From positions 2,682,134-2,746,133 of the forward strand of contig NZ_OY781884.1 of NCBI RefSeq assembly GCF_963677155.1: 64,000 nt of DNA. Reading direction: 5' to 3'. The stretch is from an uncultured Draconibacterium sp. GTDB taxonomy: Bacteria > Bacteroidota > Bacteroidia > Bacteroidales > Prolixibacteraceae. The notes under the pieces are model-generated. The model made no database searches. It was not told the origin of the DNA and saw nothing but the letters and a program-made list of their open reading frames with translations. Below are positions 35,801 through 51,244 of the stretch, piece by piece. The translations under genes were made by a program, and so were the position numbers. How positions within the stretch are numbered: position 1 is the stretch's first letter; each line of letters begins with the position of its first letter.

Positions 35801-37599
35801 CCTTAAGCTATGATATGCTTACCACTTCAGAGTTGGAAAATTGTGAGATTGTTAGTCGCGATTTAGATCGATACGTTCTTGATTGTGATGATATTGAGGC
35901 TAGCCCGGTAACCATTACTGCATTTGCTACCGATCAGAGTGGAAATATTGGTAGCTGTACCGTTGAGTTTGTTGTATTGGGTAATATACCTCCGAATGTA
36001 CTAAACGACTCGGCAATTACAGCGGTGAATGTGCCGGTAGAAATTCCGGTGACGCGAAACGATTACGACCTGAAAACAAACATTAATCTGGAATCACTCG
36101 GGGTTTTGGTTGGTCCGGGTCATGGTTCGGTAGTCATCGATAAAACTACAGGTTCGGCAATGTATACTCCAGACCGGAACTTTGTAGGATCCGATATATT
36201 CTACTATGAAATTTGTGACGATGGTATTCCTTGTAAGCCGGAGTGTGGACAAGCCATTGTGTTTGTAACCGTACTTCCTGCCAACGAGCCTCCTGTGGCT
36301 GTCGACGACTACTTTGAAGTGCCATGCGGCGAGTTGTTTGGAAATGTATTGTATGGCGACGATTTTGGAAATGGGGTAGATTATGATCCAGATGTTGGCG
36401 ATAAAATTACAGTAAGCCAGACACTGGTTACTCCGCCGGATAGTGGTGTGTTTAACTGGTTGGACGGCGATGGAAACTTTGAGTACATTCCGTTTGATGG
36501 ATTCTTCGGAACTGATAGCTTCGAGTATAGAATTTGCGACGATGGTATTCCTTCATCCTTGTGCGCCACCGCCTGGGTTCATATCACCCGTGTGCAGGAT
36601 AACGATTGCGATGGTGTTGCCGATGTTGATGATATTGATGATGATAATGACGGAATTCGGGATAGTATTGAGAATGGTGGTTACTGGCCAGAAGACGAGA
36701 TGGGACTGATCGATTCCGATCATGACGGAATACCGGATTACATGGACATCGACTCGGATAACGATGGAATACCGGATAATATTGAAGGTCAGGGCGAGCA
36801 CAATTACATTCCACCTACAGGAGTTGATTCGAACGGCGATGGCTGGGATGATGTATACGACGTAACAATTGGTGGTGTAATTACTTTCGACGAAGAGTTG
36901 ACCGATACCGATGGCGATTCGATGCCTGATTACCTGGATATTGACTCGGACAACGACGGTGTATTTGATATGATTGAAGGCCACGATGCCGACCACAATG
37001 GTATTGCCGATGTATTACGATGGTACACTGATGCCGACCACGATGGATTGGATGATGCTTATGATATCTATTATGGATGGGCCGAATATGGTAACGAGAT
37101 AGGTAGTAATGCGCCACTTCAGGATTTCGACGATGACGGAACACGCGACTGGCGCGATATTAACGATGAAGATGATGATTACCTGACAGTAAATGAGGAT
37201 CTGAACGGTAACGGCGATTACAGCGACGATGACCTCGATCTGGATGGTTATCCTGAATACCTGGATACCGAGCTGAATTGTGAGCTGTTTATTCCTGAAG
37301 GATTTTCGCCAAACGACGATGATGTTCACGACTTCTTCCAGATTTTGTGTATTCAGAAATATCCGAATGCCAAACTAATGATATTTAACCGTAATGGTGT
37401 GAAGCTCTGGGAAAAAGAACATTACGGGAACCTCGATGTTTGGGGAACTTACTACGATGCGTGGTGGTGGGGAACTTCTGAAAATGTACTTACTCTTGGC
37501 CGGGCAGGTGGATTGCCGGCTGGTAACTACATTTATGTACTGCTATTGAATGATGGAAAGGGTACGGTTAAAAATGGTACGGTGATGTTGGCGTACTAA
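32872..37599 (+). CDS. SprB-repeat surface protein with type B (CHU_C) T9SS C-terminal domain
   Basis: 1575-residue protein with a signal peptide ([18 protein letters not shown]). In order: an N-terminal PKD-like domain like those of the 418- and 236-residue proteins; SprB-type repeats (about 324-377 and 407-460, motif [16 protein letters not shown]); HYR-like modules (about 620-1040); two cadherin-like or Big-type modules ending in YEICDDG and YRICDDG (about 1040-1240); a run of calcium-binding thrombospondin type 3-like repeats ([18 protein letters not shown]; 1240-1466); and the gliding-motility-associated CHU_C domain (about 1467-1575: [33 protein letters not shown]). That domain directs type IX secretion of type B cargo, usually with a PorP/SprF partner, and one lies 15 kb upstream. 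Likely a cell-surface adhesin. Confidence 0.92.
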
Positions 37600-39531: not shown

Positions 39532-39623
39532 ATGAAACGAGTAGATAAAAAAGCCCGTTTCATATAGGAGCATTATCATGCGAGTTCCATCTTATACCTT
39601 AAAAAACGAAAAACTTTAATAAG
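39532..39623 (+). promoter_or_regulatory. Leader element E1 upstream of branching enzyme
   Basis: Small upstream ORF ATG at 39532 (MKRVDKKARFI, stop ending at 39567), whose ATGAAACG start forms an 8-bp inverted repeat with CGTTTCAT. The conserved core CGAGTTCCAT is at 39581-39590. TTTAAT follows, three bases before the gene ATG. The core GAG is 42 nt from that ATG. Same architecture as the elements at 46046, 50471 and 50566. Confidence 0.7.
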
Positions 39624-41642
39624 ATGAAAAGATACCTGCCGAAGTTAGTTCAAAATGATAAATGGCTTGAGCCTTATGCCGGTGTTATTTCCGACCGAAT
39701 GATACTTGCTGATCGTAAAGAAAAAGAAATTACCGGCGACCGGTCGCTGGTCGATTTTGCTACCGGGCATTTGTATTTTGGTTTGCACCGAACCGAATCG
39801 GGCTGGGTAATTCGCGAGTGGGCCCCCAATGCAACGCATATTTATCTGGTTGGTACTTTTAACGATTGGCATGAAAATGTTGAGTACTCTTTCGCAAGTC
39901 TCGATCACGGTGTTTGGGAATTGCATCTGGCAGCCGATCAAATAGCGCATGGCGATTTGTATGCTTTAAATGTGCATTGGTCAGTAAACTTTGGAAAACG
40001 AATACCTGCCTGGGCTACGCGTGTTGTGCAGGACGAAAATACACACATATTTAATGCGCAGGTTTGGGCGCCCGAAAATCCATACGAGTGGAAGAACCCG
40101 GAGTTTCAGCGGGCTGATGAGCACCCACTGATTTATGAAGGGCATGTGGGTATGGCTGGCGAAGAAGAACGTGTGCATACTTACAATGAATTTCGTGAAC
40201 AGATGTTGCCGCGTATAAAAGCTAACGGCTACAATGTTATTCAGTTGATGGCGATTCCGGAGCATCCGTATTACGGGAGTTTTGGATATCATGTAAGCAG
40301 CTTTTTTGCTGCATCGTCGCGTTTTGGTACGCCCGAAGAATTGAAACAACTGATTGATGAGGCGCACGGAATGGGGATTGCGGTGATTATGGATTTGGTG
40401 CATTCGCATGCCGTAAAAAACGAAGTTGAAGGCCTCGGAAACTACGATGGCACACGTTACCAGTTTTTCCACGAAGGGGCAAAAGGTGAGCATCCGGCAT
40501 GGGATAGCTATTGTTTTAACTACGATAAAAATGAGGTGTTGCACTTCCTTTTGTCAAATATAAGCTACTGGCTCACCGAGTATAAATTTGATGGATTCCG
40601 TTTCGACGGAGTAACCAGTATGTTGTATTTTAACCATGGTTTGGAGATTGCATTTACCACATACGACGACTATTTTAATGCCAATGTCGACCATGAGGCA
40701 ACTACCTATTTTAAGCTGGCGAATAAGTTGATTAAAGAAATTAATCCGCGGGCACTGTCGATTGCCGAAGATATGAGCGGAATGCCCGGACTGGCCGCAG
40801 CAATTGAAGATGGTGGCTTGGGATTTGATTTCAGAATGGCAATGGGCGTTCCTGACTTCTGGATAAAAATGATAAAAGAAAAGTCGGACGACGAATGGGA
40901 GGTCGGCGATATTTTTTACCAGCTAACCTCGAAGCGAATGGACGAGCAGGTGGTAAGTTATGTCGAATCGCACGATCAGGCCCTGGTAGGCGATAAAACC
41001 ATCATCTTCCGGCTGATTGATAAAGAAATGTATTTTTCCATGCGAAAAGATCAGCAGAACCTGATTGTTGACCGTGGAATAGCACTGCATAAAATGATCC
41101 GACTGGCTACTGCAAGTACTGCCGGCGGTGCTTACCTTAATTTTATGGGTAACGAGTTCGGGCATCCCGAATGGATTGATTTTCCGCGGGTAGGAAACAA
41201 TTGGTCTTATCAGCATGCCCGGAGAATCTGGAGCATTGCCGAGGATCAGGATCTGAAGTATCATTGGATGTATGATTTTGATAAAGAAATGATTCAGCTG
41301 ATCAACCAGAATAAGATACTTTCTATTCCTCCGGTTGATCTGGTTTTGGAAAACAAGCCCGATAAGGTGTTTGCCTTCCATCGCGGACTGTTTTTGTTTG
41401 TTTTCAATTTTAATCCAACGCAGTCGTTTACCGATTACGGGATTCCGCTTGGTTCCGGGAAATATCAAATTGTTTTGAACACCGATTCAGGGCGCTTTGG
41501 TGGTCACGACCGTGTTGATGAGGAGATTAGTTACTATACCATGCCAAGCAAAGGAATGGATAGCCAGCATTATTTACGACTGTATTTGCCGGCAAGAACG
41601 GCTTTGGTGCTTAAAAAAGTGGATATCCCGAAAGTGAAGTAA
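39624..41642 (+). CDS. glgB: 1,4-alpha-glucan branching enzyme, GH13 (eukaryote-like subfamily)
   Basis: Transfers alpha-1,4 chains to make alpha-1,6 branches in glycogen; cytosolic. An N-terminal CBM48-type domain (WAPNATHIYLVGTFNDW, about residues 66-82) precedes the GH13 barrel. Catalytic residues are visible as Asp328 (DGFRFDGVTSM), Glu381 (SIAEDMSG) and the His-Asp pair 449-450 (VESHDQ), with MDLVHSHA as region I. At 672 residues, and with YFNHGL after the nucleophile motif, it resembles the plant/animal-type branching enzymes (GH13_8) common in Bacteroidota more than E. coli GlgB. It heads the glycogen cluster, directly abuts the GSCFA gene and is preceded by leader element E1. Confidence 0.93.
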   Translation: MKRYLPKLVQNDKWLEPYAGVISDRMILADRKEKEITGDRSLVDFATGHLYFGLHRTESGWVIREWAPNATHIYLVGTFNDWHENVEYSFASLDHGVWELHLAADQIAHGDLYALNVHWSVNFGKRIPAWATRVVQDENTHIFNAQVWAPENPYEWKNPEFQRADEHPLIYEGHVGMAGEEERVHTYNEFREQMLPRIKANGYNVIQLMAIPEHPYYGSFGYHVSSFFAASSRFGTPEELKQLIDEAHGMGIAVIMDLVHSHAVKNEVEGLGNYDGTRYQFFHEGAKGEHPAWDSYCFNYDKNEVLHFLLSNISYWLTEYKFDGFRFDGVTSMLYFNHGLEIAFTTYDDYFNANVDHEATTYFKLANKLIKEINPRALSIAEDMSGMPGLAAAIEDGGLGFDFRMAMGVPDFWIKMIKEKSDDEWEVGDIFYQLTSKRMDEQVVSYVESHDQALVGDKTIIFRLIDKEMYFSMRKDQQNLIVDRGIALHKMIRLATASTAGGAYLNFMGNEFGHPEWIDFPRVGNNWSYQHARRIWSIAEDQDLKYHWMYDFDKEMIQLINQNKILSIPPVDLVLENKPDKVFAFHRGLFLFVFNFNPTQSFTDYGIPLGSGKYQIVLNTDSGRFGGHDRVDEEISYYTMPSKGMDSQHYLRLYLPARTALVLKKVDIPKVK

Positions 41643-42674
41643 ATGGCTGAATTAAAATTTCAAACCATAGTAGATGTGCCACAATTTCAGTGGCAAACGG
41701 ATTACAAGAAGAAGAACCTGTTTATGGGCTCGTGTTTTACCGAAAATATTGGGGCAAAAATGGAAGCCCTGAAATATCCGGTCGACATTAATCCGTTTGG
41801 AATTTTGTATAACCCGCTTTCTGTTGCCAACGGGCTGCGGCTATTGCTCGAAAAAAAGCAGCTTTCGGCAGACGATCTTTTCGAGCACAACGGCCTTTGG
41901 CACAGCTTCAGTCATCACGGCCGTTTTTCGAATACGGAGCAAAATAAGGCGTTGGATGACATAAATACGCGTATTAAAAGCTCAGCAACTTTTTTAAAAC
42001 AGGCCGATTTTTTATTCCTTACTTTTGGTACCGCTTGGATTTATCGGTACAAAAAGAGTGGTGAACTGGTTTCGAATTGCCATAAAATTCCGGCTCGCGA
42101 GTTTGTGCGCGAACGTTTGTCGGTACAACAGATCGTTGAAGTTTATCGTGAATTGCTAACAAAAATATGGCAGATAAATCCTGACCTGAAAGTGGTGTTT
42201 ACCGTTAGTCCGATTCGTCATTGGAAGGACGGTGCTGTTGAAAATCAGCGAAGTAAGTCGACGCTTGTATTAGCTGTCGATCAACTTATTCAGGAGCTTG
42301 GTACTAAAAAATGTGCCTATTTCCCGTCGTACGAAATTGTGATGGATGAACTGCGCGATTATCGTTTTTATGCTGAAGATATGTTGCATATTTCGGAGGT
42401 AGCTATTAAGCATATCTGGTCGCGTTTTGAGGCGGCACTAGTTGGTGCTGAAAGTATTGAAATTGGCCGGGAAGTTCAAAAAATAAACAATGCTGTAAAG
42501 CATCGTCCAATCAACAAAAAATCCCTTGAATATTCCAAATTTCTCTTTAGTTTTCTTAACAAATTAGAGTTATTGGAAAAAAGGTTTCCGTATCTTAATT
42601 TAAAGTTAGAAAAAGAATATTTTAATGTACAGATTGAGGAATTTGGTGATGGCAACCAAACAATTATAAGTTAA
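41643..42674 (+). CDS. GSCFA domain protein
   Basis: 343-residue cytosolic protein beginning its conserved domain with LFMGSCFTENIGAKM, the GSCFA motif that names the family (PF08885, SGNH-hydrolase-like), followed by INPFGILYNP, FLTFGTAWIY and TVSPIRHWKDG. The Ser in GSCF and the late DxLHIS segment (EDMLHISEVA) resemble the Ser and Asp/His blocks of SGNH esterases. Substrate unknown. Its ATG directly follows the branching enzyme's stop codon, so the two are co-translated. The location suggests a role in glycogen or sugar-ester metabolism, which is inference only. Confidence 0.88.
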   Translation: MAELKFQTIVDVPQFQWQTDYKKKNLFMGSCFTENIGAKMEALKYPVDINPFGILYNPLSVANGLRLLLEKKQLSADDLFEHNGLWHSFSHHGRFSNTEQNKALDDINTRIKSSATFLKQADFLFLTFGTAWIYRYKKSGELVSNCHKIPAREFVRERLSVQQIVEVYRELLTKIWQINPDLKVVFTVSPIRHWKDGAVENQRSKSTLVLAVDQLIQELGTKKCAYFPSYEIVMDELRDYRFYAEDMLHISEVAIKHIWSRFEAALVGAESIEIGREVQKINNAVKHRPINKKSLEYSKFLFSFLNKLELLEKRFPYLNLKLEKEYFNVQIEEFGDGNQTIIS

Positions 42675-42747
42675 ATCTCTTAACTTAGTAGTGACAACTT
42701 CGTTGTAACGGCTGAACCAATACTCATTTTGCCAAAGTGTAAGTGAT

Positions 42748-44694
42748 ATGCATTACCTTGAATTTGATAAGGAACAGCTGGTAAATCTTGAATATTCGCT
42801 GTTCAAAGAAATATTACGATCAAACAGAGCTGGTTCTTATTTAAGTACCACGCTAAATGGCTGCAATACCCGAAAGTATCATGGTTTGCTGGTGTGCCCT
42901 ATTGAGAATTTTGGAGGTGAAAAACATGTATTGCTTTCATCGCTTGATGAAACAGTGATACAAAACGAGGCCGAATTCAACCTCGGAATCCACCGCTATA
43001 AAGGCGGAACCTACGAACCAAAAGGACACAAATACATCCGTAATGTAGAGTTTGATGCGATACCCAAAATAACCTACCGAGTAGGCGGAGTTGTGCTTAC
43101 AAAAGAACGGTTGCTGGTTGAAAAAGAAGAACAAATTCTGATAAAATACACGCTTGAGGAAGCTACATCGCCAACAACATTACGGTTAAAACCCTTTCTG
43201 GCTTTCCGAAATATTCATCAGCTAAGCAAGGCAAATATGTTTGTAAACCGCAAGGTTGGGAAGACCAAAAACGGGATAAAAACATGTTTGTACGAAGGCT
43301 ACCCTGATTTGTTTATGCAATGCAGTAAGGCGGTTGATTTTGTGGGAGTTCCCGATTGGTATTACGATATTGAATACCTGAAAGAGCTGAGCCGGGGATA
43401 CGATTATCTGGAAGACCTTTTTGTGCCGGGCTATTTTGAGTTTCCGATGAAAAAAGGTGAGTCGATTGTTTTTGCTGCGGGCTTGACAGAAGCCAATCCG
43501 GTGTCGTTAAAACAGCGATTTACCAAAGAGCAGAAGAAACGTGGAGGCAAAGAAACCTTCAACAGTGTTTTAGATCGGGCCGCTCACCAGTTTATTGTTC
43601 ACGAAGGTTACACTGCCGATATTATTGCCGGTTTTCCCTGGTACAATAGCATTACCCGGCAAACATTTGTGTCGCTTCCCGGATTGTGCCTCTCGTTTAA
43701 CGACCCGAAACTGTGCGAGAAAATACTCGATTCGTACCTTAAATATTTTAACGATGGTTTTTTCCCCGACCAAATCAAGGATAAAGAGCTGCAGTACAAT
43801 TCTGCCGACACATCGTTGTGGTTTATTTGGGTTATTCAACAGTATTTAAAGAAAAATGATAATCCAAAGTTGCTTTGGAAAACATATGGGGAAGTGATAA
43901 AACGCATCCTCAATGCCTATATCAGTCAGAAACGGGATGATGTAAAGGTGCTGCCAAACGGTTTAATTTATGCCGAAAAGAAAGATACAGCATTAACCTG
44001 GATGAATTCCAGTGTTGACGGAAAGGCAGTTTTACCGCGTGCTGGCATGCCGGTTGAAGTGAATGCCCTGTGGTTTAACGCCATTTGTTTTGCACTGGAT
44101 TTAGCAGACATGGCCGGTGACCATGAATTTATTTCGAAGTGGAAACACATGGTTAATAAAGTGGCGCAGTCGTTCCTGAAAACCTTCTGGAGCGATGGGC
44201 ATGGTTACCTGGCCGATGTGGTAAAAGATGAGCAGTGCGAATGGGCAGTGAGGCCAAATATGGTAATTGCTGTGGCCATGGATTATACACCGCTTACAAA
44301 AGAGCAACAAAAGCAGGTGTTAAGTGTGGTGAAGCGCAAGTTGCTAACAAATAGGGGGTTGAGAACATTGGCGCCTGATCATTTACGCTATTTTGGTAAT
44401 ATTAATGGAGGCCCGAAAGAACGGGAGCTGGCCGTGCATCAGGGAGCTGTTTGGCCCTGGTTGCTTCAGTTTTTTGTTGAAGCTTATTTAAAAATTCATA
44501 AGCGGGGAGGCTTACCGTTTGTGAAGCAGATTATGGAAAGTTTTGAAGCCGAAATGACAGAGCATTGTATCGGGAATATTCCGGAAATGTACGATGGCGA
44601 CCCGCCCCATGTTGGAAAAGGAGCTATCTCGCAGGCCTGGAATATTGCAGGTGTGTTGTATGCGCTCGATTTGGTGCAGAATTATACAGAATAA
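42748..44694 (+). CDS. Glycogen debranching enzyme (amylo-alpha-1,6-glucosidase type)
   Basis: 648-residue enzyme that removes alpha-1,6 branches from glycogen. The N-terminal domain carries SNRAGSYLSTTLNGCNTRKYHGLLV, typical of the bacterial/archaeal debranching enzyme N-domain (GDE_N). The C-terminal alpha/alpha toroid (GDE_C, GH133) carries TLPGLCLSF-like and WMNSSVDGKAVLPRAG segments, then HQGAVWPWLLQ. No signal peptide, so cytosolic. It follows the GSCFA gene after 73 nt and precedes the GT4 synthase by 48 nt, in the same operon. A weak -7-like TCATTTTG lies just upstream (about 42723). Confidence 0.9.
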   Translation: MHYLEFDKEQLVNLEYSLFKEILRSNRAGSYLSTTLNGCNTRKYHGLLVCPIENFGGEKHVLLSSLDETVIQNEAEFNLGIHRYKGGTYEPKGHKYIRNVEFDAIPKITYRVGGVVLTKERLLVEKEEQILIKYTLEEATSPTTLRLKPFLAFRNIHQLSKANMFVNRKVGKTKNGIKTCLYEGYPDLFMQCSKAVDFVGVPDWYYDIEYLKELSRGYDYLEDLFVPGYFEFPMKKGESIVFAAGLTEANPVSLKQRFTKEQKKRGGKETFNSVLDRAAHQFIVHEGYTADIIAGFPWYNSITRQTFVSLPGLCLSFNDPKLCEKILDSYLKYFNDGFFPDQIKDKELQYNSADTSLWFIWVIQQYLKKNDNPKLLWKTYGEVIKRILNAYISQKRDDVKVLPNGLIYAEKKDTALTWMNSSVDGKAVLPRAGMPVEVNALWFNAICFALDLADMAGDHEFISKWKHMVNKVAQSFLKTFWSDGHGYLADVVKDEQCEWAVRPNMVIAVAMDYTPLTKEQQKQVLSVVKRKLLTNRGLRTLAPDHLRYFGNINGGPKERELAVHQGAVWPWLLQFFVEAYLKIHKRGGLPFVKQIMESFEAEMTEHCIGNIPEMYDGDPPHVGKGAISQAWNIAGVLYALDLVQNYTE

Positions 44695-44742
44695 ACCAAA
44701 AACAATTGATTTTTTGGTGCAACCGGAAAATTAGAAGATCAG

Positions 44743-46035
44743 ATGAAGGTATTAATGTTTGGATGGGAATTTCCTCCTCATATCTCCGGTGGATTGGGGA
44801 CAGCTTGTTACGGGCTTACAAAAGGTATGGCAGAGATTGAAGATATTGACTTAACTTTTGTGGTTCCAAAGGCTTTTGGCGACGAAGATCAGTCGCGGTT
44901 AAAGTTGATTGGAGCCAACACTATTTCCGTAAACCGAACGACCTTTACTTTTGATGAGGGAAGAAAGACGATGGAATACCTCGAAGTAGATTCGCCTATT
45001 CTGCCTTACGTTACCGAAGATGAATTCTGGACATTAAAAAGCAAACGGTACACGTGCCAGACAAAATTTGTTGGAACCGATGAAAATTCAAAGATCGAAT
45101 TTAGTGGAGGCTACGGCCCTGATCTGTTAAAAGAAATTCGCGATTATGCGCTTGTGGCTCGTATGATTGCCGAAGATAATCCCTGCGACATTATTCATGC
45201 ACACGACTGGTTAACTTATCCGGCAGGAATTGCTGCCAGCAAGGCTAGTGGAAAACCATTGGTTATTCATGTGCATGCCACCGATTTCGACCGAAGCGGC
45301 GGTGATGTAAACCCAAGGGTTTATGCCATTGAGCGTGAAGGCATGGAGGCTGCCGATAAAATTATTGCGGTAAGCAATTTAACCCGAAAAATAGTTATCG
45401 ATAAGTACGGAATTCCGCCCGAAAAAGTGGTTACCGTTTATAACGCGGTTGAGTCGGTAAATCAAGAAAAAAGAACATTGCCGCCAAAAGGTGTAAACGA
45501 AAAAGTGGTTACTTTTTTAGGAAGGATAACCATGCAAAAAGGCCCCGGTTATTTTGTTGAAGCTGCAAACCTGGTGCTCAAAAAAGTGCAGAATGCACGT
45601 TTTGTTATGGCCGGTAGTGGCGACATGATGAACGAAATGATTGCGCGAACAGCAGCGCTTGGTATCGCCGATAAATTTCATTTTACCGGTTTTCTGAAAG
45701 GGAATGATGTAAATGATCTTTTTAGCATGACCGATGTATTTGTTATGCCATCGGTATCGGAGCCTTTTGGAATTGTGCCGCTTGAAGCCATGCAGTTAAA
45801 TGTTCCGGTAATTATTTCCAACCAGTCGGGGGTGTCTGAAATTTTAAAACATGCCATAAAAATCGATTTTTGGGATACTTATGCAATGGCCGATGCCATT
45901 TATGGGGTGTTAAATTATACCTCTTTGTCCGAGCATTTTAAAAGCGAGGGGAAGACCGAGGTGGAAGAATTGAAATGGACACATTCGGCTCGCGAAGTGA
46001 GAAAAATATACCTGGATACTTTGCAAAAGAATTAA
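44743..46035 (+). CDS. Glycosyltransferase family 4, glycogen synthase-like
   Basis: 430-residue GT-B glycosyltransferase. The N-terminal MKVLMFGWEFPPHISGGLGTA is the starch/glycogen-synthase type nucleotide-sugar glycosyltransferase start (GGLG loop). HAHDWLTYPAG and VHATDFDRSG follow, and the C-domain has the E-x7-E motif SEPFGIVPLEAM. It lacks the length of classical GT5 GlgA and belongs to GT4. Given its neighbours it most likely elongates alpha-1,4-glucan for glycogen, but the donor (UDP- or ADP-glucose) and acceptor are inference. The ATG is at 44743. Confidence 0.88.
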   Translation: MKVLMFGWEFPPHISGGLGTACYGLTKGMAEIEDIDLTFVVPKAFGDEDQSRLKLIGANTISVNRTTFTFDEGRKTMEYLEVDSPILPYVTEDEFWTLKSKRYTCQTKFVGTDENSKIEFSGGYGPDLLKEIRDYALVARMIAEDNPCDIIHAHDWLTYPAGIAASKASGKPLVIHVHATDFDRSGGDVNPRVYAIEREGMEAADKIIAVSNLTRKIVIDKYGIPPEKVVTVYNAVESVNQEKRTLPPKGVNEKVVTFLGRITMQKGPGYFVEAANLVLKKVQNARFVMAGSGDMMNEMIARTAALGIADKFHFTGFLKGNDVNDLFSMTDVFVMPSVSEPFGIVPLEAMQLNVPVIISNQSGVSEILKHAIKIDFWDTYAMADAIYGVLNYTSLSEHFKSEGKTEVEELKWTHSAREVRKIYLDTLQKN

Positions 46036-46045
46036 TTCAGAGATT

Positions 46046-46148
46046 ATGAAACAAACATGAATTTTCTTCATTTCAAATTCATAAATAAGGATGATTCAAA
46101 TTTATGTGAGTTCCATCGAATACAAACGACGTAAACAATTTTAATGAG
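46046..46148 (+). promoter_or_regulatory. Leader element E2 upstream of the GH57 gene
   Basis: Tiny ORF MKQT-stop at 46046-46060, then an inverted repeat (CATGAATTT with AAATTTATG, and TCATTT with GGATGA inside). The core TGAGTTCCATCGAATAC starts at 46107. TTTTAATGAG lies directly before the gene ATG. Core GAG to ATG is 41 nt; upstream-ORF ATG to core is 62 nt, the same as in element E4. Confidence 0.7.
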
Positions 46149-47477
46149 ATGAAATCAATTTGTTTATTTTTTCAAATACATCAACCGTTCAGGCACCGGC
46201 GTTACCGTTTTTTTGATATTGGTAACGATCATTATTATTACGACGATTATTCAAACGAAAGTATTATCCGAAATATAGCCGACAAAAGTTACTTGCCGGC
46301 CAATAGATTGTTGCTCGAATTGGCTAAAAAACTGGGCGATAAGTTCAAGGTGGCTTTTTCGATAACCGGTGTTGCTCTGGAGCAGTTTGAACTTTATGCA
46401 CCCGATGTTATTGAGTCGTTTCAAAAGTTGGCAAAAACCGGTTGTGTTGAATTCCTGGCCGAAACCTACTCGCATTCATTAAGTTCGTTAAAAGATATAC
46501 ATGCTTTTTCCGATGAGGTTAAAAAGCACGACGATCAGATTCTCAGATTATTCGGTCAGAAACCGCGTGTTTTTCGAAATACAGAAATGATTTACTCCGA
46601 CGAAATTGGTGAGAAGGTGGCCAAACTGGGTTATTCGGCCATGTTAACCGAGGGAGCCAAACACGTGTTGGGATGGAAAAGCCCCGATTTTCTGTATGTA
46701 AACGCCATTAATCCGCGGCTAAAAGTGTTAATGCGCAACTACAAACTGAGCGATGATATTGGATTTCGATTCTCAGACAAAAACTGGGATGAATACCCGT
46801 TAACAGCAGAAAAGTATGTTAGCTGGCTCGAAAACGTTGGTGAAAAAGAAGAGGTCATCAACTTGTTTATGGGCTACGATTCGTTTGGAACCCGACAGCC
46901 AAAAGAAGCCGGTATATTCGATTTCTTAAAAGCTTTGGCTGAACAGATCGTTAAAAGCGATAAGTTAAAGTTTTCAACTCCTTCCGAAGCTGTTGATGAA
47001 CTTCAGCCGATTTCGGTTGTTAGTGTTCCACATCCAATCTCGTGGTCCGATGAAGAGCGTGATCTCAGTGCCTGGTTGGGGAACGAGATGCAAAAAGAGG
47101 CCTTTGAAAAACTGTATGCCATGAAAGAGCAAATGACCCGGTGCACCGACAGTGTTCTTCAGAAGGATTGGAATTATCTGCAGGCCAGTGATCATTTCTT
47201 TTATATGTCGACTAAATTTTTTGCCGGAGGTGATGCGCATAAATCCTACAGCCATTTCGATTCGCCTTACGAGGCCTTTATCAATTATATGAATGTGCTG
47301 AGCGATTTTAAAATCCGATTAAATGCACATGTTCCGGAAAGTGAAGTGGAGAATGAAATTGCTTCGCTTCATCGTTTGCTTGAAGAAAAAGAAGAAAAGA
47401 TAAAAAGAATGGAAGCGGATTTGCGCCGTTTGCAAAAAACGAAAAAGCAAAAATCGGCTTTGCGAAAAAAGAAATAG
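46149..47477 (+). CDS. Glycoside hydrolase family 57 protein (alpha-amylase-like)
   Basis: 442-residue cytosolic GH57 enzyme acting on alpha-glucans. Conserved regions visible are LFFQIHQPFR at the N-terminus (His-x-His/Gln region I), the nucleophile Glu146 in FRNTEMIYS and the acid/base Asp244 in MGYDSFG. The last 50 residues are a charged coiled-coil or tail (ENEIASLHRLLEEKEEKIK and Lys-rich end), unusual for a catalytic domain and possibly for oligomerisation. Between the synthase and the phosphorylase, it probably trims or recycles glycogen-derived chains. Preceded by leader element E2, one of four copies of that element in the window. Confidence 0.88.
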   Translation: MKSICLFFQIHQPFRHRRYRFFDIGNDHYYYDDYSNESIIRNIADKSYLPANRLLLELAKKLGDKFKVAFSITGVALEQFELYAPDVIESFQKLAKTGCVEFLAETYSHSLSSLKDIHAFSDEVKKHDDQILRLFGQKPRVFRNTEMIYSDEIGEKVAKLGYSAMLTEGAKHVLGWKSPDFLYVNAINPRLKVLMRNYKLSDDIGFRFSDKNWDEYPLTAEKYVSWLENVGEKEEVINLFMGYDSFGTRQPKEAGIFDFLKALAEQIVKSDKLKFSTPSEAVDELQPISVVSVPHPISWSDEERDLSAWLGNEMQKEAFEKLYAMKEQMTRCTDSVLQKDWNYLQASDHFFYMSTKFFAGGDAHKSYSHFDSPYEAFINYMNVLSDFKIRLNAHVPESEVENEIASLHRLLEEKEEKIKRMEADLRRLQKTKKQKSALRKKK

Positions 47478-47547
47478 ACGATTTGTCGCTAACATTAAAT
47501 TCACTTAACGATAATTATAGAACAGACAATTTGTTGGAATGATAATC

Positions 47548-47581
47548 TATTTTTGCAGCTCGTTCTAAGTAAGTTAGAACG
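47548..47581 (+). promoter_or_regulatory. Promoter and dyad operator of alpha-glucan phosphorylase gene
   Basis: TATTTTTG at 47548-47555 fits the -7 consensus. Immediately downstream, 47561-47581, is a perfect dyad CGTTCTAA-5 nt-TTAGAACG covering the expected transcription start, a typical position for a repressor site. TTTG at 47530-47533 could serve as a -33, although the spacing is short. The ATG lies 50 nt farther on. Confidence 0.55.
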
Positions 47582-47630
47582 ATGGGCTTACCCAATGGGT
47601 ATAGTTTGTAATTAATAAAATGAGAAGAAA

Positions 47631-50204
47631 ATGGAAGAGAAAAAATTTATAAAGAACCCGGTTGTGGGAGAGCCGGTATGGAAACGGATTATTGTAGAAT
47701 CTAACGTTCCTGAAAGTCTTTCACCACTACGCGATCTTTCAAAAAACCTTTGGTGGGTTTGGAATTCAGAAGCACGGGAATTATTTCAGCAGATAGATGC
47801 GGAAATTTGGGAAGAATGCGCTCATAATCCAATTGTTTTGCTCGACCATGTAAGCTACAACCGTTTTAAAGAGCTGGAACGCGATGAAATGTTCGTAGCC
47901 CGAATGCACGAAGTAAATGCAAAGTTTAACCAATATCTTGATGAACGTAAAGAGCTTGCTGGTCCTGGGATCTCCTATTTTAGCATGGAGTACGGTTTGC
48001 ACGATAGCTTGAAAATATTCTCGGGAGGTTTGGGTATTTTGGCCGGCGACTACTTGAAAGAAGCCAGCGATATGAAAGTAAAACTGGTTGCCGTGGGTTT
48101 GTTGTATCGCTACGGATATTTTAAACAAACACTGAATTTACATGGTGAGCAAATGGCTGTTTACGATGCACAGCAGTTCTCGAAAATCCCCGTTCAGCCG
48201 GCATTGGATAAAAATGGCGAATGGGTGCGCGTTGAAGTACAATATCCGGGAAGGACACTAATTGGACGTGTTTGGCAAACCAATGTTGGCTCGGTAAAAT
48301 TGTATTTGCTTGATACCGACCATCATGAAAATAGCGATGCTGATCGTTTTGTAACCCATCATTTATACGGAGGCGACAACGAAAACCGTCTGAAACAGGA
48401 AATGTTACTTGGTTTGGGTGGTATTCAGGCATTGAAAAAGCTGGGCGTAGATTCAGATATTTACCACTGTAACGAAGGGCACGCAGCGTTTATTGGAATA
48501 CAGCGCATTGCCAACCTGATGGCTGAACAGAAGCTTAGCTATGCCGAGGCTAAAGAAGTTGTAAATGCATCAACAGTGTTTACAACACACACGCCGGTTC
48601 CGGCAGGGCACGATTCTTTTCATAAAGATATGTTCCGTCATTATATGAATTTTTTCCCCGAAAAGATTGGGCTGGCCTGGGAAGACTTTGAGATGTTGGG
48701 TAAGGCCAGGGCTGAAGAAGACCATTTTAATATGAGTTACCTGGCCAGCAATTTATCGCAGGGAATTAACGGTGTTAGTATGTTGCATGGCGATGTAAGT
48801 AAAACAGTGCTTAAAGATCTGTTTCAGGGCTTTCTGGAGGAAGAGCTGGAAATTGGCTATGTAACCAACGGAGTTCACTACCCAACCTGGACAGCACAGG
48901 AATGGAAAGACATTCATAAAAAATATTTTGGCGAAGAATTTCCAACCAATCAGCTGGATTTTGATGTTTGGAAGAATATCTATAATGTTCCAGACTATGA
49001 GATTTGGGAGTTGCGTAAGAAACTACGTCAAAAGCTTATAAATTATATTAAAGAGCGTTTTTCGGATAACTGGATTAAGCGTTCGGAAAACCCGAAATTG
49101 ATCAGTGAAATTTTGGGGAAACTGAATCCGAATACATTAACAATTGGTTTTGCGCGCAGGTTTGCTACTTATAAACGCGCTCATTTGTTATTCCGTGACA
49201 CCGAGCGTTTGGCAAAAATCGTCAATAACCCCGATCGTCCGGTACAGTTTATTTTTGCTGGAAAAGCGCACCCTGCTGATAAGGCAGGTCAGGATTTGAT
49301 AAAAAATATTGTGGAAGTATCCAAACGCCCGGAATTCCGTGGTAAAATTCTTTTCGTTCAGAATTACGACATCAACCTGGCAAAAATGCTGTTACAAGGT
49401 GTTGATATTTGGATGAACACACCAACACGTCCGTTAGAAGCATCTGGCACCAGTGGTGAAAAAGGTGTTATGAATGGTACGCTTCACTTCTCTGTTCTCG
49501 ATGGATGGTGGGTTGAAGGTTATCAGAAAGATGCCGGTTGGGCATTACCTGCCGAACGTGCTTACGATGTTCAGGATTTTCAGGATGAGTTGGATGCTGA
49601 AACTATTTACAATATTCTTGAAGAAGAGGTTGTGCCTGCTTATTATGGCCGTAACCAGTACGATATTCCTGAAAAATGGGTGGGATATGTAAAAAATACC
49701 ATTGCAAATGTTTCGCCAAACTTTACCACAGCGCGCATGATGCGCGATTACCAGGACCGTTATTATAATCCGCAATACGAGCGTTCTCAACGTGTGAATG
49801 CCGAAGGTTATAAACTGGCAAAAGAAATTGCTGACTGGAAAGCAAAAGTGGCTGCAAAATGGGATGGAATTCAGGTGAAAAACATCGAAATCATCGATGG
49901 TATTGCGCACACCATGGTATTGGGTGATAAGTATCCGGTAAAAGTATCGGTTGATTTAAATGGGCTGCAACCAGAGGAAGTTGGTGTGGAGCTATTAATT
50001 ACTGAAAGTAAAGACGACGGACAGGAAAGGATTGTAGATACAGTTGAATTTATTCCTGAAAAAAGCGAAGGTACATCTTGCTGTTATAAGCATACTATTT
50101 TGCCCGACCACCCGGGATCGTTCTCATACAGTTTTCGTTTGTATGCCAAACATCCGGAATTGCCACACCGTCAGGATTTCAGATTTATTAAATGGATCAG
50201 CTAA
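47631..50204 (+). CDS. glgP: Alpha-glucan phosphorylase, GT35
   Basis: 857-residue PLP-dependent phosphorylase releasing glucose-1-phosphate from glycogen or maltodextrin. The N-terminus has the DUF3417-type segment SKNLWWVWNSEARELF, followed by ISYFSMEYGLHDSLKIFSGGLGILAGDY, VTNGVHYPTW and the C-terminal active-site block PTRPLEASGTSGEKGVMNG, which contains the cofactor Lys and the GVMNG loop of the short GT35 clade rather than the GTSNMKFMLNG of the classical type. The final 80 residues (about 780-857) form an added C-terminal domain. Cytosolic. It has its own promoter and terminator, so it is an independent unit at the end of the glycogen cluster. Confidence 0.94.
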   Translation: MEEKKFIKNPVVGEPVWKRIIVESNVPESLSPLRDLSKNLWWVWNSEARELFQQIDAEIWEECAHNPIVLLDHVSYNRFKELERDEMFVARMHEVNAKFNQYLDERKELAGPGISYFSMEYGLHDSLKIFSGGLGILAGDYLKEASDMKVKLVAVGLLYRYGYFKQTLNLHGEQMAVYDAQQFSKIPVQPALDKNGEWVRVEVQYPGRTLIGRVWQTNVGSVKLYLLDTDHHENSDADRFVTHHLYGGDNENRLKQEMLLGLGGIQALKKLGVDSDIYHCNEGHAAFIGIQRIANLMAEQKLSYAEAKEVVNASTVFTTHTPVPAGHDSFHKDMFRHYMNFFPEKIGLAWEDFEMLGKARAEEDHFNMSYLASNLSQGINGVSMLHGDVSKTVLKDLFQGFLEEELEIGYVTNGVHYPTWTAQEWKDIHKKYFGEEFPTNQLDFDVWKNIYNVPDYEIWELRKKLRQKLINYIKERFSDNWIKRSENPKLISEILGKLNPNTLTIGFARRFATYKRAHLLFRDTERLAKIVNNPDRPVQFIFAGKAHPADKAGQDLIKNIVEVSKRPEFRGKILFVQNYDINLAKMLLQGVDIWMNTPTRPLEASGTSGEKGVMNGTLHFSVLDGWWVEGYQKDAGWALPAERAYDVQDFQDELDAETIYNILEEEVVPAYYGRNQYDIPEKWVGYVKNTIANVSPNFTTARMMRDYQDRYYNPQYERSQRVNAEGYKLAKEIADWKAKVAAKWDGIQVKNIEIIDGIAHTMVLGDKYPVKVSVDLNGLQPEEVGVELLITESKDDGQERIVDTVEFIPEKSEGTSCCYKHTILPDHPGSFSYSFRLYAKHPELPHRQDFRFIKWIS

Positions 50205-50256
50205 TCCCGCAGTGAAAATTGATATTATTTGCAAAAGCAAAAATAAAATACACAGA

Positions 50257-50284
50257 AAGGTGCTCGTTTGGGCACCTTTTTTTA
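50257..50284 (+). terminator. Rho-independent terminator after glgP
   Basis: Stem AGGTGC / GCACCT with an 8-nt loop, followed by seven or more Ts, about 55 nt after the glgP stop. Confidence 0.85.
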
Positions 50285-50409
50285 TTGTTGTTGGGGAGTG
50301 AAGCGATGCAACTTTAGTTTCAAAAAGCAGATGTTTTAGAAAATTGTATTTAGCGTCATTTTTACATTTCATTCAAACTATTATTTTTACATCGAAATGA
50401 AATTTCTTA

Positions 50410-50423
50410 TGAAACGCGTTTCA
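50410..50423. promoter_or_regulatory. 14-bp perfect palindrome upstream of XRE-cupin gene
   Basis: TGAAACGCGTTTCA is a perfect palindrome with a central CG, the form expected for a LacI- or HTH-type operator. It overlaps a small ORF starting at 50409 (MKRVSENRGGFHCRL, stop ending at 50456). It sits 260 bp before the regulator gene and just upstream of leader elements E3 and E4. Confidence 0.5.
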
Positions 50424-50470
50424 GAAAATCGGGGCGGGTTTCATTGCAGACTATAAAATAAAACAAACAG

Positions 50471-50569
50471 ATGAAACGAGCATGTGAACTAATTACACCT
50501 AAAAGGATAGTTAAAAATGTGCGAGTTCCATACGATACCCTAATAAAAAAAACAATTTTAATCGTATGA
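50471..50569 (+). promoter_or_regulatory. Leader element E3, first of a tandem pair
   Basis: A 32-residue ORF begins ATGAAACGAGCATG at 50471 and its TGA (50567-50569) overlaps the ATG of the next leader (ATGA). The core CGAGTTCCAT is at 50522-50531, 43 nt (from GAG) before that next ATG. TTTTAATCGT lies directly upstream of it. Confidence 0.65.
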
Positions 50570-50668
50570 AACGAGCATGAATTTTTATTCTTCAAATTCA
50601 CAAACAAGAAGAATTTAAATTCATCGGGAGTTCCATCGAATACAAATGAAACGAACAATTTTAATGAG
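50566..50668 (+). promoter_or_regulatory. Leader element E4 upstream of XRE-cupin gene
   Basis: Tiny ORF MKRA-stop (50566-50580), then a nested inverted repeat: ATGAATTT with AAATTCAT outside, ATTCTTC with GAAGAAT inside. The core GGGAGTTCCATCGAATAC spans about 50626-50643. TTTTAATGAG ends directly before the regulator ATG at 50669. Core GAG to ATG is 41 nt. Closest in sequence to element E2. Confidence 0.7.
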
Positions 50669-51244
50669 ATGAAAAACCGGAAAAAGATTGGTAATAAGAT
50701 CAAAGCGTTTCGCGAATTCAGGCAGCTTTCTCTAGCGGATTTAGCAATACAGGCAAATTTAGATGAAGCCCAGTTACAGCTTATTGAAGATGAGGGAAAT
50801 GTTCCTTCGTTAGGTGTGCTAATTAAAATATCGCGTGCGATGGGGGTACGTATTGGTACCTTTCTCGACGATCAGGAAACAATTGGACCGGCTCTGGTAA
50901 ATGCCGGTAAAGCCGAAGAAACGCTGAGTTTTTCTACCAAAGACGAAAGTACTCGTGAGCACCTGAATTTTTTCTCGCTGGCTCAGGCAAAAGCAGGAAG
51001 ACATATGGAGCCGTTTTTGGTTGAAATTGAACCATCGGAAGAGTCGGATTATAAACTGTCGTCGCATGAAGGCGAAGAGTTTATATATGTGCTTGAAGGA
51101 AGTATTGAGATTAATTACGGAAAAGAAGTTTACCTCTTGCAAAAAGGCGATACCATCTATCTTGATTCGGTTGTTGCCCACAATATTCACGCAGCCGGCG
51201 AACAGGCGGCCAAAATTCTTGCGGTAGTTTATACTCCCGTATAA
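50669..51244 (+). CDS. XRE-family transcriptional regulator with cupin domain
   Basis: 191-residue DNA-binding regulator. Residues about 8-62 form an XRE helix-turn-helix (IGNKIKAFREFRQLSLADLAIQ, with QLIEDEGNVPSLGVLIKISRAMG). Residues about 108-190 form a cupin barrel (SSHEGEEFIYVLEGSIEINYGKE, LQKGDTIYLDSVVAHNI), which usually binds a small effector. Such XRE-cupin proteins (PuuR/SutR-like) often control adjacent catabolic or acyl-CoA genes. It precedes the AMP-binding synthetase by 15 nt, so the two form an operon, a pairing frequent in Bacteroidota. It is preceded by two tandem leader elements and a palindrome, so its own expression looks heavily controlled. Confidence 0.9.
   Translation: MKNRKKIGNKIKAFREFRQLSLADLAIQANLDEAQLQLIEDEGNVPSLGVLIKISRAMGVRIGTFLDDQETIGPALVNAGKAEETLSFSTKDESTREHLNFFSLAQAKAGRHMEPFLVEIEPSEESDYKLSSHEGEEFIYVLEGSIEINYGKEVYLLQKGDTIYLDSVVAHNIHAAGEQAAKILAVVYTPV

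Follow-up and report, generated by a model that had tools for sequence, protein, structure and literature searches.

A family of short, geneless and very probably mobile elements at start codons of Draconibacterium and other Bacteroidota

Element copies of the window and their base pairing

The DNA studied here is a stretch of 64,000 nucleotides (the window; position 1 is its first letter) from contig NZ_OY781884.1 of an uncultured Draconibacterium sp., in which four copies of an element of about 100 bases end exactly at the start codons of genes. All features named below lie on the forward strand. The first copy, of the CTT type, occupies positions 39532 to 39623, and ends directly before the new ATG (39624) of a glycogen branching enzyme-like gene (39624 to 41642) specifying CBM_48, alpha-amylase catalytic and C-terminal domains. 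The second (46046 to 46148; CGA type) is located at the start codon of a glycosyl hydrolase family 57 (GH57) gene (46149 to 47477). The third (50471 to 50565; ACG type) and fourth (50566 to 50668; CGA type) form part of a stacked set, the fourth starting at the ATG that ends the third. Just upstream of this pair lies a decayed copy (50409 to 50470), the oldest at this gene, which was overlooked in the preliminary description of this DNA and is an old remnant common to the inner-clade relatives. The gene 3′ of these three stacked insertions (50669 to 51244; hereafter XRE) encodes an XRE/Cro-type helix-turn-helix plus a cupin domain.

Reading of the window sequence bears out the four positions and the common plan set out in that description. 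The cores, at 39582, 46108, 50523, and 50628, match GAGTTCCATNNNATAC exactly; the core-to-ATG distances are 42, 41, 43, and 41 nt, within the claimed 41–43 nt; and the small open reading frames (ORFs) comprise 11, 4, 32, and 4 codons, as had been reported. A feature that had escaped notice is that in most copies the core's three variable bases can pair, as exact complement, with the triplet that precedes the start codon; in window copies 2 and 4 (CGA/GAG) two of these three pairs are G.A instead.

From 5′ to 3′ the element is characterized as possessing ATGAAACGAGCATG, a variable interior that is often a hairpin, CATGCGAGTTCCAT, nnnAT, approximately 24 A/T-rich bases, ATnnn, and then the ATGAA of the gene. 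Two helices can be drawn. In P1, the upstream ATGAAAC pairs with GTTCCAT, joining the first stretch (ATGAAACGAGCATG) to CATGCGAGTTCCAT through a helix that contains two G.A pairs and one mismatch; in P2, CATnnnAT pairs with ATnnnATG at the gene start. In copy 1 the 5′ arm of P2, CATCTTAT (39588 to 39595), is the exact complement of the 3′ arm, ATAAGATG (39619 to 39626), within which lies the branching enzyme start codon, while in copy 3 CATACGAT pairs with ATCGTATG. Because both helices need the core CAT, P1 and P2 compete. The stretch GTTnCATnnnAT is complementary to ATGAAAC on the left and to ATnnnATG on the right, and thus to the two ends of the element when these are joined, ATnnnATG-A-AAC. 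The ends themselves, ATGAAACGAG on the left and TTTAATnnn on the right, do not form inverted repeats, and a GT[AG]G foot is absent from the copy alignment.

A check for covariation, as the preliminary description had proposed, found complementary changes in both helices. Nineteen copies from the genome that contains the window, judged clear by eye among 30 of 117 two-mismatch core matches (including all eight exact ones; see below), were aligned (A1). P2 displays 20 cells changed on both sides against 7.3 after shuffling, and P1 nine against 2.4, with none of 500 shuffles as high in either case. In a larger alignment fitted to the covariance model (A3; 81 of 119 loci, 96 rows, of which L118 and L119 overlap another copy on the opposite strand), P1 and P2 together exhibit 174 both-side changes against 63.9 (0 of 500); P2 is paired in 93.7% of cells and has both-side changes at six of its eight pairs. 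Shifting the pairing partners abolishes both signals. A pattern scan of named genomes yielded at least 119 stretches carrying 121 copies, upon which all 121-copy figures rest. The scan pattern itself fixes five of the eight P2 pairs, and only the three nnn pairs are therefore free evidence in that set: all three form in 88 copies; of the others, 20 belong to the CGA/GAG type, in which two pairs are G.A, and 13 to neither class. Facing the fourth base of ATGA there is a C or A in 118 copies, a G in one and a T in two, so that the mismatch at this point is kept in 119 of the 121.

Filled and empty sites and the extent of the family

Five genes, XRE, GH57, KGOR alpha, branching enzyme, and lpxD, have both filled and empty orthologues. 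The empty site has the form flank/ATGAA-gene and the filled site flank/ATGAAACGAG...nnn/ATGAA-gene; in each compared pair the sole ATG of the empty site corresponds to the upstream ATG of the filled one. ATGAA stands at the element boundary in the pairs of all five genes, the fixed target staying in the left flank. Genes in which codon 2 is other than AAA, such as an rplO-like gene (ATGAAT), keep their own sixth base, which puts the exchange point probably within ATGA/A, give or take one base. Thirty loci were displayed per gene; the 13 closest were scored for XRE, GH57, KGOR, and branching enzyme, and all 30 for lpxD, using a script whose calls were corrected by eye for XRE, GH57, and lpxD.

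At XRE, two relatives are empty (...catctt/ATGAAGAACC), two have a single decayed copy, four have the remnant plus one copy, four, including the genome under study, have the triple stack of types CTT (decayed), ACG, and CGA in a row, and G013 is unclear. The GH57 copy is found in this genome only and is missing in the 12 others; among more distant orthologs, outside the scored 13, copies or remnants were seen at the start codon in G020 and G017, and remnants in G004 and G032. KGOR alpha is filled in six and empty in seven; its flank (...ttttagag/ATGAAAG) is near-identical with and without a copy (45–56 of 56–59 bases in 18 comparisons), and of the more distant orthologs G007 has a CTT-type copy and G020 a remnant. 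Branching enzyme is filled in five and empty in eight. The lpxD sites (flank tatatttttgtcg../ATGAAAT) belong to a second family of the phylum, in a genus sample where the gene is present in 79 of 81 genomes; seven are filled, 20 empty, and three unclear. Many lpxD loci (L435 to L464) carry the box TATATTTTTG just upstream of the original ATG. This is presumably the Bacteroidota −7 element, and the insertion may then fall at the transcription start or close to it.

That empty sites are precise, insertions stack, and copies are patchily distributed supports one of the roles originally envisaged, that of a small mobile element which targets start codons and duplicates ATGAAA there. The copies very probably (probability about 0.88) represent a family of small non-autonomous mobile elements of Bacteroidota with ATGAA as target, situated mostly at start codons. 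As the filled and empty pairs indicate, the old gene start is what appears as the upstream ATG of the element, and the new start is supplied by the element itself. None of the copies examined contains a gene, and the element is mostly 70–110 bp in size.

The four copies are members of a widespread, dispersed family. The exact core occurs eight times in the 5.27 Mb genome and a reversed-pattern control not at all. With up to two mismatches there are 117 matches against 60 for the control, which means that the looser matches are mixed with chance, and with up to three mismatches, in the window only, the 25 matches are near chance (mean of shuffles 17.7; seven of 100 reach 25). A covariance model (R1) was built on the 19 A1 copies, and its search, likewise suggested at the outset, revealed further copies in the same genome, in relatives, and in the wider Bacteroidota. 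It gave 58 matches in the genome at E ≤ 1 and 49 at E ≤ 0.01; at the latter threshold 66 of 100 relatives were matched (67 of 101 counting the genome itself), and at E ≤ 1e-4 the model also matched 17 genomes in a sample of 394 others from the phylum. Copies per genome are lower bounds, with at most 39 candidates scored per relative and at most 10 per other phylum genome. Genera among the stretches listed by the pattern scan of named genomes include Draconibacterium, Maribellus, Mariniphaga, Sunxiuqinia, Puteibacter, Proteiniphilum, Petrimonas, and Saccharicrinis.

No Rfam 15 family, HEARO/omega RNA included, covered any copy between window positions 36000 and 54000 at E ≤ 5; at ten other loci (E ≤ 1) the sole match was at chance level and outside the copy. 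Plasmid and phage collections gave no match with a single copy as query. Viral contigs did not match the 3′ pattern of the element, while the 5′ pattern was found on four, three of them by chance on inspection. The remaining one, L344 (IMGVR_UViG_3300011323_000053), carries at the start of an ORF of 137 codons a copy that is real, though decayed, on a contig whose genes we take to be Mu-like in appearance. Literature searches found no description of such a start-codon element.

Some variation in structure was also observed. In one subfamily (L300, L193, L136, and L216) a TGAATGT...ACATTCA hairpin replaces the CATnnn arm, and in another (L030 and L332) there are additional bases between GAG and GTTACAT. 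Other small palindromic repeats lie within the copies at L305, L217, L125, and L166, from which it follows that the copies themselves serve as landing sites for other repeats.

The preference for start codons exceeds that expected from the target letters. As a null, 464 kb of the genome were examined using a simple longest-ORF rule for gene calls: 121 of 327 called genes begin with ATGAA and 318 more ATGAA lie outside called genes, giving start codons a 28% share of non-coding ATGAA sites (33% for ATGAAA). By comparison, 37 of the 44 classifiable copies in this genome begin an ORF of at least 60 codons (seven do not; of 49 in total, two are stacked and three lack an ATG), as do 91 of 113 classifiable copies in the named genomes (22 do not, three are stacked, and five are cut). 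This amounts to 80–84% against 28–33%, with p below 1e-11 in both sets. Among the other phylum genomes, 24 of 26 readable copies are at a start codon (27 were displayed, one misread by the script). Sixteen non-start copies from the first 81 named loci were inspected: 11 have a same-strand ORF of at least 90 codons starting approximately 600 bases downstream or less, and none is inside an ORF of at least 120 codons. This excess could come from true targeting or from selection against other sites. A target rule via nnn was considered and rejected, since left flanks in this genome mostly mismatch the nnn of the element by eye, the exception being KGOR, where GAG matches.

Gain, loss, and the mobilizing activity

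Copies stack head to tail at one gene, and those upstream can decay. A tree of 25 genomes (three genes, 2610 columns, midpoint root) places the inner clade in the order G029, G034, G008, G005, G006, G010/G002, G024, and G030/G000. The KGOR copy is present in G029, G008, G006, G010, G030, and G000 and scarlessly absent from G034, G005, G002, and G024. All six copies are 97 bases long and pairwise alike at 86–94 of 96–97 bases; nine other copies from the genome under study match the G000 KGOR copy at 68–82 of 90–95 bases with 7–22 gap columns. The simplest reading of this pattern would be one gain followed by four losses.

The structure suggests how such movement might proceed. The GTTnCATnnnAT stretch would act as a guide that folds the single strand and brings together the two ends, or one end and an ATGAA target; cleavage would take place at ATGA/A; and the element would exit as a joined circle, to re-enter at another ATGAA. 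Its A/T-rich 3′ tail, followed by ATG, would constitute a replacement translation start region, as a result of which insertion would be nearly harmless. A short fixed target, ends without inverted repeats, guide pairing, and scarless loss all liken the element to the IS200/IS605 family, and the mobilizing enzyme might be an HUH Y1 transposase (IS200-like or RAYT-like) supplied in trans, a proposal to which we assign somewhat less than even odds. A Y1 gene is present in all 44 genomes with at least 10 matches and in 41 of 57 others (Fisher, 3.6e-5); outside the genus of the window the corresponding figures are 15 of 15 and 35 of 49 (p 0.014).

A 141-residue Y1 protein with the YIxNQxxHH signature (YIQNQEIHH) is encoded at L341 (G000:C1:1765000-1767000), adjoining a dapF-like gene; no insertion sequence ends were visible by eye, and G030 has a near-identical protein (L296). 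Y1 subclass 1.2 (Y---Q--HH) is outlined in PMC6006769 for Bacteroidetes and Cyanobacteria, as low in copy number and generally without insertion sequence ends. That the L341 protein, which bears this signature, is the missing enzyme is a guess.

Several observations weigh against the account just given. No mobilizing enzyme was found, most Y1 genes of the 101 genomes being unchecked. Thirty Y1 loci (the best hit in each of 30 genomes) contained just two weak model matches (22.8 and 18.5 bits), four of the five Y1 loci of the genome itself, examined by eye, displayed no element-like ends, and a CATnnnAT/ATnnnATGAA scan of these 34 loci returned one low-complexity palindrome only. Outside the genus, the link to Y1 is gone at thresholds of at least one or at least five copies (p 0.26 and 0.29), and the association is confounded by kinship and genome size. 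IS608 has a replication-coupled lagging-strand bias, whereas the element has none: 22 copies are leading and 27 lagging of 49, with the origin placed by GC skew at 21 sample points. A set of IS605 likewise lacks strand bias, with 10 of 22 leading (PMC7290912). The layout of guide and ends is also unlike that of IS608, in that both ends pair with a single guide, placed 3′ of the first helix instead of 5′ of each hairpin. Computed folding energies are mixed (z from −5.2 to +1.4 for seven single copies). Some nodes of the tree are weak (clade support 76–100), and scarless absence could come from slippage, site exchange between species, or repeated gain.

The same mobile element may have a mover other than Y1, for instance an RNA-guided recombinase (IS110-like) or insertion into mRNA near start codons with subsequent copying into DNA; this too falls a little short of an even chance. 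A guide that is the complement of the joined ends is consistent with it, as is the lack of strand bias; start-codon enrichment beyond ATGAA would suit an RNA-linked target, and copies occur in seven of the 16 genomes that gave no Y1 hit. These seven have few matches (1–6), which may be old, and no copy examined has an internal gene. A 5-base target is short for elements of the IS110 kind, which counts against a mover of that type. An autonomous relative was also sought: no gene lies within the copies examined, and L125 and L166, which looked like the ends of a longer element, hold a foreign small repeat. Readings of the core as integron attC-like or group I intron-like were rejected, as the junctions are at ATGAA and not GTT.

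Entry by transposition might be combined with exit by accident, through replication slippage between the two ATGAA repeats without any enzyme. The element is flanked by direct repeats of at least five bases, and in the filled KGOR copies nine bases, GAGATGAAA, are found at both ends. What argues the other way is that, in a single clade, more than one gene shows scarless absence in a patchy pattern, which suggests a frequent process without measuring its rate. Slippage is accordingly a serious possibility as the route of loss, though one we would not bet on.

The preliminary description had also raised RNA control of glycogen genes. This was not borne out: copies vary between close species and the downstream genes are of many kinds, e.g., threonine synthase, ribosomal protein L15, a PII protein, a SusC-like protein, and LpxD (named from their translations, without a search), with no evident common theme, so that glycogen-specific control is unlikely. 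In the more general form of a cis-regulatory RNA leader, CAU would pair with either the upstream AUG (P1) or the gene AUG (P2), and translation of the small ORF or a ligand would switch the gene. The two helices share CAU and cannot both form fully, as such a switch would need, and the 5′ arm of P2 shows 96.9% identity among eight lpxD copies (six of the seven filled loci plus G242 and G302) against 50.5% for the interior; inclusion of a ninth copy, G548, which lacks P2 pairing, lowers the value for the arm to 91.7%. Some of the lpxD copies, however, could have inserted separately as members of one subfamily, in which P2 is kept by family resemblance. Furthermore, the leader is scarlessly missing from the same gene in close species, upstream copies of a stack decay, the downstream genes have no evident common pathway, and the small ORF varies in length and sequence. 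As the main role of the element, a regulatory leader is improbable, and the precise empty sites and the decay of upstream copies led to its rejection. The lpxD start-codon hairpin nevertheless looks conserved, from which some long-kept copies may have had a regulatory after-life. An operator family, also suggested earlier, whose members would bind a protein in front of co-regulated genes, would account for the constant spacing to ATG but can be dismissed, neither complementary changes in two helices nor insertion exactly at ATG, as the empty sites reveal, being expected of operators.

Relation to known systems and implications

The closest comparison to a small mobile element of this type is provided by the IS200/IS605 family and its gene-less derivatives, the PATEs (outlined in PMC7290912), and by IS608, described in PMC5934647 as having a short target, guide pairing with the cleavage sites, and precise sealing of the donor. 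Shared with these are a fixed target of 4–5 bases kept at the left end, ends lacking inverted repeats, and precise donor sealing. Pairing of a putative internal guide with the two ends is likewise present and covaries, but in a layout that differs from that of IS608. Unlike IS200/IS605, the element strongly prefers start codons and has no matching Y1 element at the loci checked. REP sequences with their TnpA-REP/RAYT transposases (REPtrons) resemble it in having many short structured copies per genome and possibly a single-copy Y1 acting in trans; they differ in size (20–40 bases according to PMC3733652, against about 100), and the element has no GTAG-type foot, is located at start codons, and has no copy flanking Y1 genes in the loci tested. 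Bacteroidetes Y1 genes of subclass 2.6 are summarized in PMC6006769 as flanked by atypical structures, copies of which occur elsewhere.

Classical miniature inverted-repeat transposable elements are likewise non-autonomous, of high copy number, and bounded by a direct repeat, whereas the present element lacks terminal inverted repeats, has ATGAA as its boundary repeat, and leaves scarless empty sites in close kin. The TAACTGA repeats of Beggiatoaceae and some Bacteroidetes (PMC4679880) are similar in standing just before the start codon at many genes of unrelated function. They are tandem heptamers, and the abstract of that report mentions neither a structure like P1/P2 nor insertion at the codon.

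It is tempting, if doubtful, to view these sequences as a new class of minimal self-guided element occupying a start-codon niche: geneless, about 100 bases long, and with an internal 12-base stretch that is the complement of its own joined ends. Such an element would home beyond the letters ATGAA (via mRNA, the transcription bubble, or an orphan Bacteroidota Y1, e.g., of subclass 1.2), give the gene a new start codon, leave without trace, and sometimes be kept as a translation-controlling hairpin, as at lpxD. It would be a natural case of self-guided insertion via base pairing, and if an orphan Y1 moves it, an enzyme without known ends would be joined to elements without an enzyme. Scarless coming and going between close species would make each such gene a natural test of how a change in the start region affects translation. 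A mobile family at start codons would also account for the variability of 5′ leaders, and for certain mis-called starts, in Bacteroidota.

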